A DNA stretch of 35,133 bases, taken from a virus. Location of the stretch: the IMG/VR virus record IMGVR_UViG_3300046777_000246, positions 1-35,133 of that record; one strand, 5' to 3'. This document shows, one piece after another, positions 2,737 through 16,074 of this stretch (its first letter is position 1; each line of letters starts with the position of its first letter). The notes beneath the pieces were generated by a model. That model was not told the DNA's origin, made no database searches, and saw only the letters and a program-made list of their open reading frames with translations. Position numbers and translations under genes: made by a program.

Positions 2737-3062
2737 TTTGTAATCCTTTCTAAGTTCCGATTGTTTGCTTCCTGTGTCCGCCAAACTTCAATTCTAAGCT
2801 TTGCCGATTCTAAGCGATACTTTAGTAATTCTGCTTGTTCTGTTGCTTCACCAATTGCTTTTGCTAATTCTTGATATTTTGGATCTGCATACGCTTCACG
2901 TTCTTGTGCGCCTATTGCTGTTTCATAACTATTTTTCATCAGAATTGCTTTCAAGCTGCTTTTAAACACTTCAAGCTCTGCAAGTCTGCCTTTTGCTTTT
3001 GCGTATTCTGGCGCATTGTCAAAAATGTATTCAACAGCTTTATGCGGATCAATCTCTATCAT
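2733..3062 (-). CDS. Coiled-coil hypothetical phage protein
   Basis: A 109-aa protein rich in Ala/Glu/Lys/Leu, with long helices and probable coiled coil from about residue 18 to the end (EYAKAKGRLAELEVFKSSLK, then EQAELLKYRLESAKLRIEVW). Such short coiled-coil proteins are common in phage early operons. Function unknown. The start at 3062 has AGGGAAG upstream and overlaps the glycosyltransferase stop by 14 bp, consistent with translational coupling. Confidence 0.75.
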   Translation of the reverse strand: MIEIDPHKAVEYIFDNAPEYAKAKGRLAELEVFKSSLKAILMKNSYETAIGAQEREAYADPKYQELAKAIGEATEQAELLKYRLESAKLRIEVWRTQEANNRNLERITK

Positions 3063-3903
3063 GTTCTTCCCTTTTCACTAATTTCATCCCATATTCATTG
3101 ATGTCTTGTTGAACAACAATGTTTTGTTTTTTTTTTAGGATATTTTTTTTGAACACGTCAAAATCAACTCTGTGGTGCCATCTGTCATAACGCCATGCAA
3201 GCGAAGCGTATTCAGGATAAGCATCAACTAATGTTTGCGACTTTTCTTTTTTCTTTTCACCGTCTGCGTATAACTCTGTTGTATTGCCACCTTTCATGCT
3301 CAATGTCGCAGCTTTATCTTGCAAAAACGCATTAAACAAAATAGTGCACCACCCATCTTTCAATACATCGAGCGACAACGCTACATCTTCGTTGTATTTA
3401 AGTTTCCACCTATGTGGCAAATCATTTCTTATCAATATGCAAGAAAAAATGCGTGTGTTTAAACGAAACGCTGGCATATCTGTGCGTTCTTCTGCAAAAA
3501 AACGATACTGAAATCCAGATTGTGCGACATTTTCGTATCTATCTGTGAAATCTTCCGCTGCACGAAATATTGCGCCAGACCTGCAAGGTATGCGTTTGTT
3601 TTTGTACAAGCGAGCAAACCCATGTATGTTGTCATCAAGTATCCAATGAAACTTGTGACCCTCGCTAATTGAATGCTCCCAACACCAATTTCTAGCAGGA
3701 TAACTTCCTAGCCCAAGATTGCTAAAAGGCAATACAAGTATCTTAGATTTGTCGATAACAGCAGCATATTGCTCGTATTCTTGTGGTTCAACAACAATAC
3801 GATATGCAACGCCCATCACTTCAAGCGCTTTGCTTGTTTTGCGTGTGTCAGCACGACCTTTTGAAATGATGTAGATTGGATATTTAGGATGATTGTGTTT
3901 CAT
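3049..3903 (-). CDS. TET-associated-type glycosyltransferase (TAGT-like, GT-A fold)
   Basis: A 284-aa probable sugar transferase. It opens with a Rossmann-like strand and loop (YPIYIISKGRADTRKTSKAL), has the nucleotide-sugar/metal motif WILDDNI at residues 87-93, and a second acidic motif NEDVALSLDVLKDGW at about 171-185. This layout is that of the phage TAGT family, predicted from gene context in published comparative genomics to glycosylate modified bases in phage DNA. Here there is no TET/JBP dioxygenase or nucleotide hydroxymethylase in the genome. The substrate is therefore open: a host-made or unknown modified base, or not DNA. It overlaps the 82-aa MPEF gene by 20 bp. ATG 3903 is preferred to TTG 3909. 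Confidence 0.8.
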   Translation of the reverse strand: MKHNHPKYPIYIISKGRADTRKTSKALEVMGVAYRIVVEPQEYEQYAAVIDKSKILVLPFSNLGLGSYPARNWCWEHSISEGHKFHWILDDNIHGFARLYKNKRIPCRSGAIFRAAEDFTDRYENVAQSGFQYRFFAEERTDMPAFRLNTRIFSCILIRNDLPHRWKLKYNEDVALSLDVLKDGWCTILFNAFLQDKAATLSMKGGNTTELYADGEKKKEKSQTLVDAYPEYASLAWRYDRWHHRVDFDVFKKNILKKKQNIVVQQDINEYGMKLVKREEHDRD

Positions 3904-4132
3904 CGTCAATCCACACTTTTTTATCTGTATTTACACGCACAGGAAACATTACGCTTTTTGTTGTGAAATGTATGCGTTTCCCTATCAACTCAGAAAACTC
4001 ATTCATATCTTCGACAGTAATGAAATTGACAACAACTGAATGAATAGTTTTTAAATTTGTTTGTTCAAATTCTGGCATTCCTTGCCATTCTTTTTTCCAA
4101 TCAAATTCTTCGTCTCCAAACAAGTCTTTCAT
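3884..4132 (-). CDS. Small 'MPEF-motif' protein coupled to the glycosyltransferase
   Basis: An 82-aa protein with WKKEWQGMPEFEQ (residues about 12-24), an alternating strand segment IHSVVVNFITVEDMNEFSEL and GKRIHFTTKSVMFP. I recall the same pattern (WxxMPEF, then a strand, then TKSxWFP) as a free-standing or ParB-fused C-terminal module next to TAGT genes in other phages; this is memory, not a search. It overlaps both neighbours (4 bp upstream, 20 bp with the transferase), so the pair is almost certainly co-expressed. The role is unknown; it could be a DNA- or substrate-recognition partner of the transferase. Confidence 0.7.
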   Translation of the reverse strand: MKDLFGDEEFDWKKEWQGMPEFEQTNLKTIHSVVVNFITVEDMNEFSELIGKRIHFTTKSVMFPVRVNTDKKVWIDDETQSS

Positions 4133-6442: not shown

Positions 6443-6458
6443 ACCAATCCCTGTGTAG

Positions 6459-6494
6459 TTAAGATAGCTTAATACTTGTTTTATGTTTTAGCAA
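6459..6494 (-). promoter_or_regulatory. Leftward early promoter with operator
   Basis: TTAAGATAGCTTAA at 6459-6472 is a near-palindrome (TTAAG-N4-CTTAA). On the minus strand TTGCTA (6494-6489) lies 17 bp before a weak -10 TAAGCT (6471-6466) that overlaps the operator. The first leftward gene starts at 6442. This would drive the whole early/accessory operon and be shut off by the operator-binding protein. The -10 is poor, so the promoter is less certain than the operator. Confidence 0.55.
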
Positions 6495-6793
6495 GTCGTT
6501 TTGATGTTGTATTTTTACAAGTTATTTATATAAATTCTTGAGACAATACTTCCCCAAGGGTGGTAAGCGTGTAGTTTCCTACGCTGTACCGACCTATCCC
6601 ATATCTATGACAGAAGTTATGCACATATATTTGATTAAGCACAAATAGATACCAGAGCTACACAGAGTGAATGTTCAATCGAGCTAGAGTCTTGTCCCAC
6701 CATGTCCTCTAGTCTTGTGCTGTACCCATTTAAGTCAGCGAGGCTTGCTCACGGGTGTAGTGAAGCCTATGTTCTATTCCACGCCACCCATGT
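6473..6793. other. Gene-poor regulatory island, possible replication origin
   Basis: No convincing gene on either strand. Visible elements are: AT-rich tracts near 6475-6540; a hairpin at 6562-6590; a sequence TTATGCACA at 6617-6625 that fits the DnaA-box consensus TTATNCACA, flanked by an AT-rich stretch to about 6655; and short Ser/Leu-type ORFs that do not look coding. A lone DnaA box plus AT-rich DNA beside the regulator is suggestive of an origin but not proof. Confidence 0.35.
6562..6590 (-). other. Bulged hairpin with GAAA tetraloop on the minus strand
   Basis: GGTA/TACC plus AGCGTAG/CTACGCT arms pair around a four-base loop, with a 1-nt and a 2-nt bulge. Read on the minus strand the loop is GAAA, a stable GNRA tetraloop. 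It lies about 120 bp upstream of the first leftward gene, so it could be part of a structured non-coding RNA or of a longer leader. Confidence 0.4.
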
Positions 6794-6827
6794 AGGTGCA
6801 TTGTTATCGTATGGAGTACGAGCCAAT

Positions 6828-6944
6828 AAAAAAAGCCGCTTTAGAGCGTGTCTTGCTGGCCGGAATCCTATTTCTAGGACTATTTTTTGATAAATACTAT
6901 CCAAGTACACTTATCAAAAAACCAAGACACACACTAAAACGGCT
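6828..6944 (-). terminator. Large nested inverted repeat ending in a U-tract (terminator for the regulator transcript)
   Basis: Arms 6834-6855 and 6923-6944 form a 22-bp stem on the minus strand with a single T-T mismatch and two G-U pairs. It is followed by seven T residues (6834-6828), the hallmark of an intrinsic terminator for leftward transcription from the Cro-like gene. Inside are a perfect 11-bp stem (6883-6893 with 6911-6921) and a 5-bp stem TCCTA/TAGGA (6866-6879). The structure is far larger than a normal terminator and could also be a stable small RNA or a replication element. Confidence 0.6.
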
Positions 6945-6964
6945 TCTCAACATCGCCCGGCCAG
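6856..6964. repeat. Second inverted repeat CTGGCCGG / CCGGCCAG crossing the terminator stem
   Basis: CTGGCCGG at 6856-6863 lies inside the loop of the 22-bp stem, and its exact reverse complement is at 6957-6964, outside it. The two pairings cross, so together they could form a pseudoknot, or they could be mutually exclusive alternatives. Confidence 0.5.
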
Positions 6965-7002
6965 AGCAACATTTACGAACAAATTATCTACTACTTTTTG
7001 AC

Positions 7003-7224
7003 CTAATGCAACTCAGGCCAAATTGTTTTCCAACTTTCAGGGAAAATATCTTTTCGGTGTATCACGCCTTGAGACAGTCGCTCAAGTTCAGCAGCCATAA
7101 AAATCAGCTTGTCTGGCGGTATACCGTTATTCTTCCATTGCGAGACAGCAGGAACAGACACCCCGCACAACTTTGCTACCTTAGTTGTGCCCCCTAGAAT
7201 CGAGATGATTTTACCGTTGTCCAT
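7003..7224 (-). CDS. Cro/YdaS-like transcriptional regulator
   Basis: A 73-aa helix-turn-helix protein: MDNGKIISILGGTTKVAKLC, then GVSVPAVSQWKNNGIPPDKL, then AAELERLSQGVIHRKDIFPE. The segment TTKVAKLCGVSVPAVSQWK (about 13-31) is the HTH. The GIPPDK and RKDIFPE strings are typical of YdaS/Cro-type regulators of lambdoid phages. It is divergent from the ERF operon and very probably binds the TTAAG-N4-CTTAA sites, one of which abuts its own start. There is no Shine-Dalgarno before ATG 7224. No opposing CI repressor gene is seen, so a lysogenic switch is not demonstrated. Confidence 0.88.
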   Translation of the reverse strand: MDNGKIISILGGTTKVAKLCGVSVPAVSQWKNNGIPPDKLIFMAAELERLSQGVIHRKDIFPESWKTIWPELH

Positions 7225-7250
7225 GTAGCTATCTTAACCCAACAAGTCAA
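7222..7250 (-). promoter_or_regulatory. Operator/promoter at the regulator start
   Basis: On the minus strand TTGACT (7250-7245), a 17-bp spacer, then TACATG (7227-7222). The spacer contains TTAAGATAGC in the same position as in the two rightward promoters. The -10-like box includes the ATG of the regulator, so transcription from it would start inside the gene. Either this is operator only, or the geometry is exceptional. Confidence 0.5.
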
Positions 7251-7291: not shown

Positions 7292-7320
7292 TTGCACAAT
7301 CTGTTTAGATAGCTTAATAT
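7292..7320 (+). promoter_or_regulatory. Main rightward early promoter with operator in the spacer
   Basis: TTGCAC at 7292-7297, a 17-bp spacer and TAATAT at 7315-7320 make a good sigma70-type promoter about 35 bp before the ribosome site of the ERF gene. The operator-like TTTAGATAGCTTAA (7304-7317) fills the spacer and overlaps the -10, so a bound regulator would block RNA polymerase. A further partial copy, TTAAAGCTAC, lies at 7271-7280. Confidence 0.75.
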
Positions 7321-12462: not shown

Positions 12463-12563
12463 GCTGCTACTACCCACGGAATCAAAGTTGTCATCACAAT
12501 CAATACTACCGGAAGCAAGACAATTGCCCCGAATAGTATTGATGCTTCTTTTAGATACTTCAA
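12432..12563 (-). CDS. Tiny hydrophobic protein with TTG start (43 aa), tentative
   Basis: TTG 12563 overlaps the stop of the last glycine-rich fibre gene (TTGA). It reads LKYLKEASILFGAIVLLPVV, then LIVMTTLIPWVVAAWIISKS. Two hydrophobic stretches and a charged N-terminus look like a small holin or antiholin. It fills the 97-bp gap between the fibre gene and the next lysis gene and overlaps the latter by 31 bp. No clear Shine-Dalgarno; it would rely on reinitiation. Confidence 0.5.
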   Translation of the reverse strand: MKYLKEASILFGAIVLLPVVLIVMTTLIPWVVAAWIISKSSTS

Positions 12564-13495
12564 GCGTTGTACGTAGAACTCGAAGTGAAGGTGTGGATTG
12601 TATAGCCACCAGACGATGTAACAGTACCGCCTGTGCCACGCTGTGAGCCAAGGTAAGCAATAATTACTACGCCTGAACCGCCGGTTGCGCCAGATACATT
12701 ACTACCGCCGCCGCCACCGCCGCCTGTATTTGCTGTTCCTGCCGTGCCATTATTTACTCCACCAGCACCGCCACCGCCAGTACCACCTGCTCCTTGTCCT
12801 GTTTCTGATGCACCGCCACCGCCACCAGCATAAAAAACAACAGACCCGCTAATCGAACTAGATAATCCTGCACCACCAGCACCACCAGTAACAGTAGTAT
12901 TAGGGCTACCTGCTGCGCCTGCACCTCCTCCACCTCCTCCAGCGCCAAAACCAGAAGCTGCCGCATGATCGCCGCCTACATTACCTTGCCCTGATGTTGC
13001 AGAGCCTCCCGGGTACACATTTGCGCTGCCGCCTGATGCGTAAGCAGATCCGCCACCAGAACCGCCTGAACCACCTAAATAGTTAACAGTATTTGCTGAT
13101 CCTCCCCTACCACCGCCAATAGCACTTATTGAATTAAATGAAGAATTAGTTCCATTTGATGCTGTAGCAAGATTTACTGATCCAGCACCACCTGCGCCGA
13201 CTGTAATTGTGTATGCAGTTCCTGAACTTAAAATGCTAGTCCCAGTTAAATATCCACCTGCGCCACCACCACCATAGATTGCACCACCGCCACCGCCAGC
13301 TACAACAAGGTAATTAACCGAATACCCAGCAGGTTGTGAGAATTGCAGCCAAGAAGAAGTTGTAGCGTCATACCACTCTGGGTTTCCAGTTGTGGAGTTT
13401 TGACGAATCATGCCACTTGCAGGAGTAGCAGGACGCTGCGCCGTAGTCCCCACGGGGAGCTTTAAATAGTCTGTACCCTGTACGTCAAGAGCCAT
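12560..13495 (-). CDS. Glycine-rich tail fibre/adhesin, paralogue C
   Basis: A 311-aa protein. The N-terminal collar VPVGTTAQRPATPASGMIRQ-type segment (LPVGTTAQRPATPASG, then NSTTGNPEWYDATTSSW) is followed by VNYLVVAGGGGGAIYGGGGA and about 200 residues of Gly/Ala/Ser-rich repeats. It ends with GTGGTVTSSGGYTIHTFTSS. The Gly-rich domain resembles the phage Gly_rich_2 type, probably packed polyglycine-II helices that present receptor-binding loops. The start has AAGGA 8 nt upstream; the upstream stop and this site form the string TAATTAAGGA. One of three paralogues. Confidence 0.85.
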   Translation of the reverse strand: MALDVQGTDYLKLPVGTTAQRPATPASGMIRQNSTTGNPEWYDATTSSWLQFSQPAGYSVNYLVVAGGGGGAIYGGGGAGGYLTGTSILSSGTAYTITVGAGGAGSVNLATASNGTNSSFNSISAIGGGRGGSANTVNYLGGSGGSGGGSAYASGGSANVYPGGSATSGQGNVGGDHAAASGFGAGGGGGGAGAAGSPNTTVTGGAGGAGLSSSISGSVVFYAGGGGGASETGQGAGGTGGGGAGGVNNGTAGTANTGGGGGGGSNVSGATGGSGVVIIAYLGSQRGTGGTVTSSGGYTIHTFTSSSTYNA

Positions 13496-13508
13496 GATTT
13501 ATCCTTAA

Positions 13509-13862
13509 TTAAGCTGCAACCAATTCTTTCCACGATGTCGTGGCTTCGTCCCACTCATAACGCTTGCCGTCTGTAGGCATCGCTACTGGAGCTTCCCATA
13601 ACGCTGTGTGTGGGCTTAGTACCCATGATGCGTATGGTTGTGGTGGGTAAAAAACGTCTGCTACGGAGTCGTAGTGGTAGCCAATGCCAGCAAAGTTGCC
13701 ACGAAGCGGTGTGCCGCCTTTTGTGTGCTGATTGCCGTGTGTGTTGTAGCTAGTTTGTACCCATTGACCGGGTGAGCTGTCTACGAATGTATCAAAGAAC
13801 TCAGGTTCTGCAACGATAACCTGTGTAACTTTTCCGTCTACTACTTTGGCAAAATGACCCAT
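13509..13862 (-). CDS. Virion-associated hypothetical protein between fibre paralogues (117 aa)
   Basis: MGHFAKVVDGKVTQVIVAEP, then EFFDTFVDSSPGQWVQTSYN, GTPLRGNFAGIGYHYDSVAD and a Trp-rich C-terminus ending YEWDEATTSWKEL. Proteins with the pattern ...NxVxxVIVAExxF...PGxWxQTSYNTxGGxH...LRxNFAxIGYxYD occur next to fibres in marine and freshwater phages. They are probably small tail or neck decorations; function unproven. AAGGAGA precedes the ATG. It separates paralogues B and C, implying insertion or duplication around it. Confidence 0.82.
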   Translation of the reverse strand: MGHFAKVVDGKVTQVIVAEPEFFDTFVDSSPGQWVQTSYNTHGNQHTKGGTPLRGNFAGIGYHYDSVADVFYPPQPYASWVLSPHTALWEAPVAMPTDGKRYEWDEATTSWKELVAA

Positions 13863-13876
13863 GTTGGTCTCCTTAA

Positions 13877-14830
13877 TTAAGCCGTGAATGTACCGCTAGA
13901 TGTAAATGTGTGGATTGTGTTGCCACCGCTTGATGTAACTGTGCCGCCTGTGCCTCGTTGTGCACCAGCGTAGCTGATAATAACAATGCCTGAGCCGCCT
14001 GCGCCGCCTGCGTAATTTCCTACAGAAGAACCGCATCCACCGCCGCCGCCACCTGTATTTACAGTTCCAGCCGTACCATTTGCAACAGCGCCACCAGCAC
14101 CGCCACCACCAGCACCACCAGCACCACCAGCCGTAGCATATCCACCGCCACCGCCACCGCCTGCATAAGTTACAGCAGAACCAGAAATAGAATTTGAAGC
14201 ACCTGCACCGCCAATACCGCCACTTGTACTAGAGCCATTACCACCAATAGCACTAGCACCGCCACCACCGCCGCTGCCATAAGCACCCGCTGCGGTGCTA
14301 CCAACTCCCCCCGCATAACCTTGTCCAGATGTTCCTGACCCAGCAGTACCGCCAAATGACGAACCACCACCTGATGCACCAGAAACACCATTTGTTGCTG
14401 TTGTATTGCTTGGCGCTAATACGCTGCCACCACCAAGTGCCGTAGCAATTCCGTTAATGATTGAACTATTGCCGCTATTTCCCGCTGCTCTACCAGCACC
14501 AGCAGAAGCACCTCCTGCGCCCACAGTAATTGTATAAGCCGTGCCTGAAGTAAATGCAGTTGTTCCAGTTAATAAACCGCCTGCGCCGCCGCCACCTGTA
14601 GGATAATCTCCACCATTAGTAGAGCCGCCAGAACCGCCGCCACCCACAACAAGGTAACTAGCCGAGTACAGCAACGAAGTAATTGGTTGCCATTGCGAAC
14701 CAGTCCAGCTTTCCAATTGACCAAGCGTACTATTCCACCCAATCTGCCCGTTTACAGGCGTTGATGGTCTACCTGCCGTTGTCCATGATGGTGGGCCAAA
14801 TCCTGTTGAGCCGCCGACGTATGCTGTCAT
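13877..14830 (-). CDS. Glycine-rich tail fibre/adhesin, paralogue B
   Basis: A 317-aa protein. The short N-terminus TAYVGGSTGFGPPSWTTAGR leads to the collar RPSTPVNGQIGWNSTLGQLE plus WTGSQW, then SASYLVVGGGGSGGSTNGGD and a long Gly/Ala/Ser-rich domain with repeated TYAGGGGGGG-type blocks. The end GTGGTVTSSGGNTIHTFTSS, then GTFTA, is nearly identical to that of paralogue C. Its N-terminus differs from paralogue A, suggesting separate attachment or a captured fusion. AAGGAAAG precedes the ATG. Confidence 0.85.
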   Translation of the reverse strand: MTAYVGGSTGFGPPSWTTAGRPSTPVNGQIGWNSTLGQLESWTGSQWQPITSLLYSASYLVVGGGGSGGSTNGGDYPTGGGGAGGLLTGTTAFTSGTAYTITVGAGGASAGAGRAAGNSGNSSIINGIATALGGGSVLAPSNTTATNGVSGASGGGSSFGGTAGSGTSGQGYAGGVGSTAAGAYGSGGGGGASAIGGNGSSTSGGIGGAGASNSISGSAVTYAGGGGGGGYATAGGAGGAGGGGAGGAVANGTAGTVNTGGGGGGCGSSVGNYAGGAGGSGIVIISYAGAQRGTGGTVTSSGGNTIHTFTSSGTFTA

Positions 14831-14839
14831 GTTCTTTCC

Positions 14840-15823
14840 TTATGCCGTAAATGTGCCTGACGAAGTGAAGGAATGCACCGTGTATGTGATTCCGCCAGAA
14901 GTAAAGCTAGTAACTGTGCCGCCTGTGCCTCGTTGAGTGCCGGGGTACGAAACAATCACAATACCTGAGCCACCTGCTGCGCCTGAGCCGCCGCCACCGC
15001 CTGTATTTGCAGTCCCCGCTACGCCTGATGCGCCGCCACCTCCCGCACCGCCAGCGCCACCACCAATAACGCTACCGCCTGCGCCACCGCCTGCGTAATA
15101 TGTTGCCGTACCTGTAATTGAGCTTTGTAAACCTACGCCACCTGCACCGCCAGCCGAACTTCCATTTGCAGGCGATCCACCAACGCCACCAGCACCACCA
15201 CCACCTGCGGAAGGATAGTTAGGGCCTGCTGCGCCTTGACCTTGACCACCGTTATTACCTTGCCCAGCTGTTCCTGTGCCGCCATATAAGTTACCGCCGC
15301 CACCGCCTGAACCACCATTGCTTGCGTAAGCAGCAGTTCCAATAGCGCCAGCGCCACCACCAATAGAAGTTGAAAATGTACTAAAAGAAGAATCTGATCC
15401 GTTAGTTGCGCCACTTGATCCACCTGCGCCAACGGTGATTGTGTAAGCTGTTCCAGCGCTTAATGTGGCATAAGAAGTAAGCATACCCCCTGCGCCACCA
15501 GCACCGCCTGCACCACCACCACCACCTGCGACAGTAAGATAATTTACGGTGTATGCAGGGCCAGCGACCGCACCCCATGAAGTACCGTTATAAATTTCAG
15601 TATAACCAAGCGTTGTGTTATACCTCATTTGACCAGTAACAGGGCTTGCAGGACGCTGTGCTGTTGTTCCAACAGGAATTGTTGCCCCACCTGTTGTTGC
15701 ATCCGCTGTAATTGCTACGCCATTAGCAGCAGGAATTGTCATTATGAAATTGGAAGCAGTATTGGCTGCATCAAGTGTTACCGATCCACCTGAAGCTGCT
15801 CCAAGTTTTATTGATCCAGCCAT
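14840..15823 (-). CDS. Glycine-rich tail fibre/adhesin, paralogue A
   Basis: ATG 15823 (GGAG 6 nt upstream) gives a protein of about 327 aa. MAGSIKLGAASGGSVTLDAA, then NTASNFIMTIPAANG, is a phage fibre N-terminal module also seen in the adjacent 82-aa protein. VPVGTTAQRPASPVTG-type collar, YNTTLGYTEIYNGTSW, VNYLTVAGGGGGAGGAGGAG and about 190 Gly-rich residues follow. The C-terminal tag is GTGGTVTSFTSGGITYTVHS. Probably a trimeric or polyglycine-II adhesin at the tail tip. Confidence 0.85.
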   Translation of the reverse strand: MAGSIKLGAASGGSVTLDAANTASNFIMTIPAANGVAITADATTGGATIPVGTTAQRPASPVTGQMRYNTTLGYTEIYNGTSWGAVAGPAYTVNYLTVAGGGGGAGGAGGAGGMLTSYATLSAGTAYTITVGAGGSSGATNGSDSSFSTFSTSIGGGAGAIGTAAYASNGGSGGGGGNLYGGTGTAGQGNNGGQGQGAAGPNYPSAGGGGAGGVGGSPANGSSAGGAGGVGLQSSITGTATYYAGGGAGGSVIGGGAGGAGGGGASGVAGTANTGGGGGSGAAGGSGIVIVSYPGTQRGTGGTVTSFTSGGITYTVHSFTSSGTFTA

Positions 15824-15825
15824 AT

Positions 15826-16074
15826 TTAGCTCCAAATGCTTCCGTTATATGTTTCAAACAATCCAGTTGTAGTATTAAATCTAACCATACCTGTAACTGG
15901 TGCAGCAGGGCGTTGTGTGGTTGTGCCTGTAGGCAAAAATATCCCGCCTGTTGTTGAATCTGCGTATGTCAACTGTCCTGTTGTTGCAGGGATCACTACC
16001 GTGACATTGGACGCTGTGTCAACAGGGTTGACTTCAACCGTTCCGAGCGCAGGTGCTTTTAGTCGTAAGCCCAT
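15826..16074 (-). CDS. Truncated fibre module protein (82 aa)
   Basis: MGLRLKAPALGTVEVNPVDT, then ASNVTVVIPATTGQLTYADS and LPTGTTTQRPAAPVTGMVRF, and the end FNTTTGLFETYNGSIWS. This matches, segment by segment, the N-terminal about 90 residues of paralogue A, but it stops exactly where the glycine-rich domain begins. It looks like a fibre base without adhesin: a deletion product, an adaptor that caps the base, or one subunit of a hetero-oligomer. The ATG is one base after the upstream stop. The frame is open to 16158, but that part overlaps the 230-aa gene. Confidence 0.75.
   Translation of the reverse strand: MGLRLKAPALGTVEVNPVDTASNVTVVIPATTGQLTYADSTTGGIFLPTGTTTQRPAAPVTGMVRFNTTTGLFETYNGSIWS

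Follow-up and report, generated by a model that had tools for sequence, protein, structure and literature searches.

The early region of this P22-like phage likely harbors, on the minus strand and immediately past the gene of a Cro-type regulator, a gene for a stable, self-terminating small RNA, which we refer to as RNA1. This reading was drawn from sequence comparison of the window, that is, the whole 35,133-nt stretch of the virus record IMGVR_UViG_3300046777_000246, with related phage loci, cited here by their L numbers. RNA1 is a new family within a known kind, the structured phage RNAs, and it apparently represents an undescribed RNA family of P22-like freshwater phages.

Genomic context of the locus

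Genes for Erf-type annealing, SSB, and exonuclease functions diverge from the cro gene, the RNA1 region is followed downstream by the genes of a winged-helix and a replication protein (rep), and portal and terminase genes were recognized elsewhere in the window. Among named phages, DNA similarity was found only to ctn9Y15 (MW202674), a complete, circular 36.6-kb P22-like podovirus with no annotated integrase. The deposited annotation of MW202674 (4881-5377) contains four tiny hypothetical open reading frames (ORFs UOF80261-UOF80264) antisense to RNA1 and RNA2, the downstream neighbor of RNA1; these are probably not genes. A coding role of the plus-strand ORF at 6796-7197 in the window, which is antisense to cro and RNA1, was likewise set aside.

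Several further features of these phages were observed. An operator-like repeat built around TTAAG-NNNN-CTTAA occurs at 6458-6474, 7227-7238, and 7303-7319, marking the promoters of cro, of recombination, and of the early genes downstream; the RNA1 promoter has no such site. A conserved hairpin element, CTTGGCAGGC...GCACTCTTAGACG, lies between cro and RNA1 in L009, L010, L012, and L017-L027 and also after RNA2 in L122 and L054, with GTGCTTTATCGAAGCTCAC present in most. The TET-associated glycosyltransferase encoded at 3049-3909 on the minus strand (PF20691, E 5.5e-44) suggests that this phage has modified DNA bases, and the three tandem paralogous glycine-rich proteins at 12560-15835 (minus strand) are probably tail fiber parts.

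Architecture of RNA1

A preliminary description of the same DNA had reported nested and crossing repeats between 6828 and 6964, and all of them (the 22-bp, 11-bp, small, and 8-bp crossing stems) were found in place. The two 23-nt arms of the outer stem (P2 in Table 1) are 87% Watson-Crick complementary and, when read as minus-strand RNA with G-U pairs allowed, fully paired except for one mismatch. Enclosed within them are a perfect 11-bp stem (6883-6893 with 6911-6921) and a small stem (6864-6870 with 6875-6881). The crossing repeat reads, on the plus strand, CTGGCCGG at 6856-6863 and its complement CCGGCCAG at 6957-6964, and each of these words occurs once in the window in a plus-strand search. 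The minimum free energy of the minus strand was -65.2 kcal/mol, compared with -36.2 ± 3.6 kcal/mol for shuffled sequences (z = -8.2; 0 of 200 shuffles as good), and the plus strand folded more weakly in the same comparison (z = -4.5). In the loop of an additional 5' hairpin, P1 (approximately 6973-6966 with 6956-6949), lies the crossing repeat's 5' half, and the RNA1 unit therefore spans approximately 6976 to 6828. The bounds given earlier thus held for the repeats, but they truncated the unit at its 5' side, where P1 had been missed. In relatives, the length of RNA1 ranges from about 95 to 150 nt, and P3 is missing from compact forms.

Table 1. Features of the cro-RNA1-RNA2 region (window positions; PK5' and PK3', the two strands of the pseudoknot)
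Feature	Position	Strand	Basis
P22_Cro/YdaS-like regulator gene (cro), 73 residues, directly upstream of RNA1	7003-7224	-	PF14549 E 6.9e-10, PF15943 E 4.5e-10
-35-like TTGCAT, predicted RNA1 promoter, overlapping cro 3' end	7006-7011	-	TTGACA or TTTACT in relatives
-10-like GATAAT, predicted RNA1 promoter, 17-nt spacer	6983-6988	-	consensus match, homologs
RNA1, whole putative small RNA, ~145 nt	6828-6976	-	fold, covariation, promoter, recurrence
P1, 5' hairpin, putative transcript 5' end	6949-6973	-	fold; helices 1-2 84-94% paired
P1 core, GTTGC with GCGAT	6970-6966 / 6956-6952	-	
PK5', CTGGCCGG, in P1 loop	6957-6964	-	95% paired with PK3'
P2, 5' strand of long terminator stem	6923-6945	-	98.7% paired; double changes in 15/20 pairs
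P3, inner hairpin, 11 bp perfect, AT-rich	6883-6921	-	88.5% paired where present
P4, small inner hairpin AGUCCUA-GAAA-UAGGAUU	6864-6881	-	fold; 54% paired, alignment imperfect there
PK3', CCGGCCAG, flush against P2 3' strand	6856-6863	-	repeat and covariation
P2, 3' strand of terminator stem	6833-6855	-	repeat and covariation
T7 run, intrinsic terminator, putative RNA1 3' end	6828-6834	-	T-run columns 0.98 identical, 47 homologs
RNA2, second structured RNA, conserved and modular, adjacent to RNA1 downstream	~6542-6824 (approximate ends)	-	covarying stems

Predicted promoter and terminator

RNA1 is predicted from conserved consensus elements to have its own sigma70-like promoter. A -35/-10 pair with a spacing of 16-18 nt precedes it in nearly all of 57 homologs, in which raw consensus matches averaged 5.0 of 6 positions at the -10 box (TATAAT) and 3.9 of 6 at the -35 box. 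Because P1 starts about 6 nt past the -10 box in most homologs (the gap is about 10-12 nt in the window), this hairpin would form the very 5' end of RNA1. At the opposite end, the minus strand does run into the seven T residues noted earlier, and their combination with the 20+ bp stem of P2 corresponds to an intrinsic terminator. Across 47 homologs, conservation within RNA1 peaks at the T-run (identity 0.98), and the pseudoknot strands are among the least conserved elements (0.65-0.67). Loci of the L009-L027 type possess an apparent cro terminator upstream of the RNA1 promoter, so that RNA1 would there be independent of read-through from cro. Taken together, the conserved promoter, the position of P1, the T-run, and the apparent separate cro terminator give RNA1 the anatomy of a self-contained small RNA.

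The spacer between the -35 and -10 boxes frequently contains a dyad in L044-L045, L050, L065-L066, L073, L077, L083, and L128. Its arms vary between phages while staying complementary (CCTCG/CGAGG, ATCTG/CAGAT, CACCG/CGGTG, and CTCTG/CAGAG, around GAAAGA), and the dyad is perhaps an operator with changing specificity.

Recurrence and covariation in related phages

A search with the Cro protein yielded 40 viral loci, and reading the 330 nt after cro in each revealed that many share one layout in differing sequence, in which a -10-like box is followed by a short hairpin, then by a long stem enclosing inner hairpins, and finally by a T-run. Even unrelated sequences adopt this layout, as in L028 (AGTTCTCTCC/GGAGAGAACT) and L122 (GGCTTGGT/ACCAAGCC). 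The DNA pattern of the stem retrieved 75 further stretches, most of which were genuine on inspection. For an unbiased estimate, 80 loci were chosen by the Cro profile alone, and the 65 that were distinct and long enough were retained; a fixed detector was then applied to the DNA after cro, which counted a locus as positive when P1 and a terminator stem were accompanied by a flush pseudoknot with six or more Watson-Crick pairs. Of these 65 loci, 34 showed the RNA1 architecture, compared with only one among 975 dinucleotide shuffles and none among the 65 reverse strands, and the 34 positive loci contained 23 distinct pseudoknot sequences. Relaxing the detector to admit the type B layout raised the count to 37 loci (5 of 975 shuffles). 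Some of the remaining Cro-chosen loci lack the cassette entirely; in L030, L031, and L033-L035, no RNA1-RNA2 cassette follows cro, and a coding gene begins at the site of the RNA1 -10 box. The cassette is a clean presence/absence module.

Covariation was assessed in 47 type A homologs against a structure comprising P1, P2, P3, P4, and the pseudoknot. Standard pairs occupied 90.5% of the pair cells, in comparison with 77.1% after shuffling and 41-45% when partners were slid, and 38 of the 51 pairs had changes on both sides. Compensatory changes were present in 15 of 20 pairs of the long stem, the conservation of which is biased because most homologs were retrieved by the P2 sequence pattern, and in five of the six pseudoknot pairs counted, with the pseudoknot 95% paired overall. 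The covariance check proposed in the preliminary description therefore came out in favor of both stems, and the crossing repeat that it had read as a pseudoknot behaves as one. The G-U pairs in P1 and P2 fit a minus-strand RNA. Since the pairing is conserved in relatives, the notion of a simple termination point alone can be rejected; the fold energy (z = -8.2) and the conserved pairing together point to a minus-strand RNA that is more than a termination point. Among the functions suggested earlier, a stable small RNA is the best reading, given the covariation, the conserved promoter and T-run, and the recurrence beside cro.

From these features, we infer how RNA1 would be expressed, terminated, stabilized, and folded, in which order, and how it might act in trans. 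RNA polymerase would start at the sigma70-like promoter overlapping the 3' end of cro and produce an RNA of about 145 nt, the 5' end of which would fold immediately into P1. During transcription, the P1 loop would capture the strand that immediately precedes the 3' half of P2, a pairing that would pre-position both distant halves of this stem, so that P2 could close across 60-110 nt of intervening RNA. The closed stem, together with the U-run, would terminate the transcript and leave both ends of RNA1 locked in helices; with its ends so protected, RNA1 should be long-lived. Its most likely mode of action would be that of a free small RNA; in addition, the terminator would separate cro from RNA2 and the replication region.

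RNA2 and read-through in cis

The neighboring RNA2 possesses covarying stems and a hairpin capped by GAAA, and it is modular across phages: its 5' and 3' portions occur in various combinations, and entirely different types can take its position, with at least six types in total. The type present in L003 contains the Betaproteobacteria-1 RNA (RF02932; L003 1276-1401, 81.1 bits, cut-off 49.4), and RNA2 in L032, L036, and L037 resembles the EGFOA RNA (RF02955) below the cut-off (29-30 bits; L037 3432-3524). Both families reportedly come from a 2017 paper in NAR. Neither model matched the window or RNA1, the hits in relatives falling only in RNA2, and no RNA1 was found upstream of Betaproteobacteria-1 in the bacterial genomic loci examined. 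No specific base pairing between RNA1 and RNA2 was detected (matched pairs -62.1, mismatched pairs -62.3). In L118, L120, L123, L125, L129, and L130, a different small element precedes RNA2, comprising a promoter, hairpins with CCC-containing loops, and a strong terminator.

This arrangement bears on the most serious competitor to a free small RNA, an attenuator acting in cis, in which RNA1 would be the leader of a longer early transcript and the pseudoknot would set or regulate read-through into RNA2 or rep. We consider it unlikely. In its favor, most loci have RNA2 or rep beginning about 5-15 nt past the T-run, the gap containing no clear promoter, and RNA1 and RNA2 remain adjacent even though the RNA2 type changes; cis control by fixed or regulated read-through is conceivable because a structured RNA or rep directly follows RNA1 in most relatives. 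The start codon of rep in the type B relatives L017 and L021-L025 lies 10-15 nt past the T-run, leaving no space for another promoter; some read-through is therefore implied for rep, and a parallel cis role is possible. However, an attenuator with alternative folds, as envisaged in the preliminary description, found no counterpart in the relatives: neither computed foldings nor inspection by eye revealed a conserved competing fold that would open the stem, the pseudoknot and the terminator stem can coexist, and the T-run is nearly invariant. Moreover, the window and many relatives have a separate operator-bearing promoter-like site after RNA2 (repeats 6458-6474 and 7303-7319), and RNA2 seemingly has its own promoter-like site in at least L118, L120, and L130.

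Evolution of the pseudoknot

The pseudoknot is the fastest-evolving element of RNA1, and its complementarity is retained. Up to four Watson-Crick types occur per pair, with pair 26/132 being CG in 17, AU in 13, UA in 11, and GC in 5 homologs. Parsimony was applied on a tree built without the pseudoknot columns, from a short alignment in which recombination may inflate the number of steps; on this tree, two central pseudoknot pairs switched Watson-Crick type at least 13 times each, as opposed to 0-6 times for P2 pairs, and double switches per pair numbered 6.5 in the pseudoknot and 2.15 in P2. The G-U share was 1% in the pseudoknot versus 10-21% in P1 and P2. Between closely related loci, this element is the first to change, and it accounts for four of six differing sites in L045/L048, four of five in L009/L027, and four of nine in L049/L096. 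The pseudoknot words have no further site in the window, and 7-nt loop words were no more common in the flanks of their own loci than those of other loci (0.98 versus 1.02 per locus); at 8 nt, the values were 0.38 and 0.25, with no consistent place. As no other partner appears in the phage, the loop would pair with its own receptor, in cis or between two RNA1 copies, and by sequence the loop-receptor pairing is thus self-pairing, within one RNA1 or between two. No conserved unpaired seed naming a target was present in the RNA1 homologs.

These patterns raise the prospect of homotypic recognition, whereby the P1 loop of one RNA1 would pair with the receptor of another, as a dimer or in interference, in a manner specific to the phage type, as in plasmid incompatibility or with the immunity RNAs of phages. 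The rapid change of a pseudoknot that stays paired almost without G-U, two close pairs of loci (L045/L048 and L009/L027), which differ mostly there, and the lack of another site for its words in the phage are consistent with this idea, which we nevertheless regard as rather doubtful. Covariation does not separate cis from trans pairing, independent close pairs are few, and a cis pseudoknot undergoing fast compensatory drift would give a similar picture. In addition, the complete relative ctn9Y15 has no annotated integrase, which renders immunity in the lysogenic sense doubtful. Selection for pseudoknot specificity is accordingly offered as a hypothesis, in view of the short-alignment tree, possible recombination, and the small number of close pairs. 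In a speculative extension that we think improbable, RNA1 may be a self-recognizing, RNA-only identity tag, the loop and receptor of which diversify quickly under selection so that RNA1s of the same type recognize each other; recognition could take the form of a dimer, a ring, or interference with an incoming relative, excluding co-circulating types. If the fast compensatory evolution does reflect selection for specificity, these phages would offer a natural setting, with many existing variants to compare, in which to examine whether RNA self-recognition is used by phages.

Database searches and less probable explanations

Rfam 15 gave no match in the window at the gathering cut-off and nothing for RNA1 in the scanned relatives, and a relaxed search of the window returned only sub-threshold microRNA and unrelated UTR matches. 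The RNA1 pattern had 0 matches in GTDB genomes, and Cro relatives in genomes were without RNA1. The RNA1 covariance model, run on 399 genomes of one order, found only stretches of about 60 nt, which are much shorter than RNA1 and were taken as ordinary terminators. A literature search produced nothing on RNA1, Betaproteobacteria-1, or EGFOA, and because many journals lay outside its coverage, the lack of an earlier description of RNA1 is not proven. Identification of RNA1 as a 6S mimic was set aside since it has no central bubble, and as a type III antitoxin since it has no tandem repeats.

RNA1 might also serve as a decoy, with its shape and not its sequence being what matters, for a protein such as RNA polymerase, ProQ, or an RNase. 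Its structure is indeed kept without conservation of the sequence, both ends are held in helices, and no unpaired seed is conserved; however, no such protein is known, RNA1 lacks the central bubble of a 6S-type hairpin, and neither 6S nor another Rfam family was matched, so that we give this explanation little credence. It is more improbable still that RNA1 does nothing beyond ending the cro operon as an elaborate intrinsic terminator. The strong hairpin and T7 lie just past cro, and the T-run is the most conserved part, but the RNA1 promoter is itself conserved, the pseudoknot is kept by compensatory changes in 47 homologs, and loci of the L009-L027 type have an apparent cro terminator of their own. 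A DNA hairpin used in replication, proposed earlier and in keeping with the early-region position upstream of the replication genes, can practically be dismissed, as no evidence for it was found, the minus-strand G-U pairs and the strand asymmetry (z of -8.2 versus -4.5) indicate RNA, and a cruciform cannot account for the crossing pairs or the promoter-to-T-run frame.

Comparison with known RNAs

RNA1 adds an apparently undescribed structured RNA family to uncultured freshwater phages, and its neighbor gives a phage home to at least one Rfam family without a known function, Betaproteobacteria-1, with EGFOA perhaps being another. Both of these families lie directly downstream of RNA1 (in L003, and in L032, L036, and L037, respectively) and are forms of RNA2, not of RNA1. 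RNA1 shares with intrinsic (rho-independent) terminators a GC-containing stem followed by a U-run, its own T-run being conserved; unlike them, it encloses 60-110 nt with inner hairpins, is joined to a 5' hairpin by a covarying pseudoknot, and has its own predicted promoter. HK022 put, which prevents termination, is likewise a structured RNA of lambdoid early transcripts, whereas RNA1 ends in a conserved terminator. Lambda OOP, P22 sar, P4 CI, and P1 C4 are small phage RNAs antisense to phage mRNA. RNA1 resembles them in its place beside the cro/immunity region and in having its own predicted promoter and terminator, but it is encoded on the same strand as cro, shows no conserved seed, and has no site in the phage matching its loop. 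In the phi29 pRNA, two regions vary between phages and remain mutually complementary, as do the two pseudoknot strands within RNA1, although the architecture and phage type differ and no Rfam match was obtained. Finally, loop sequences diversify with pairing kept in ColE1-type RNA I and other incompatibility RNAs, as they do in RNA1; those RNAs have an antisense transcript as their partner, whereas the only partner of the RNA1 loop lies within RNA1 itself.
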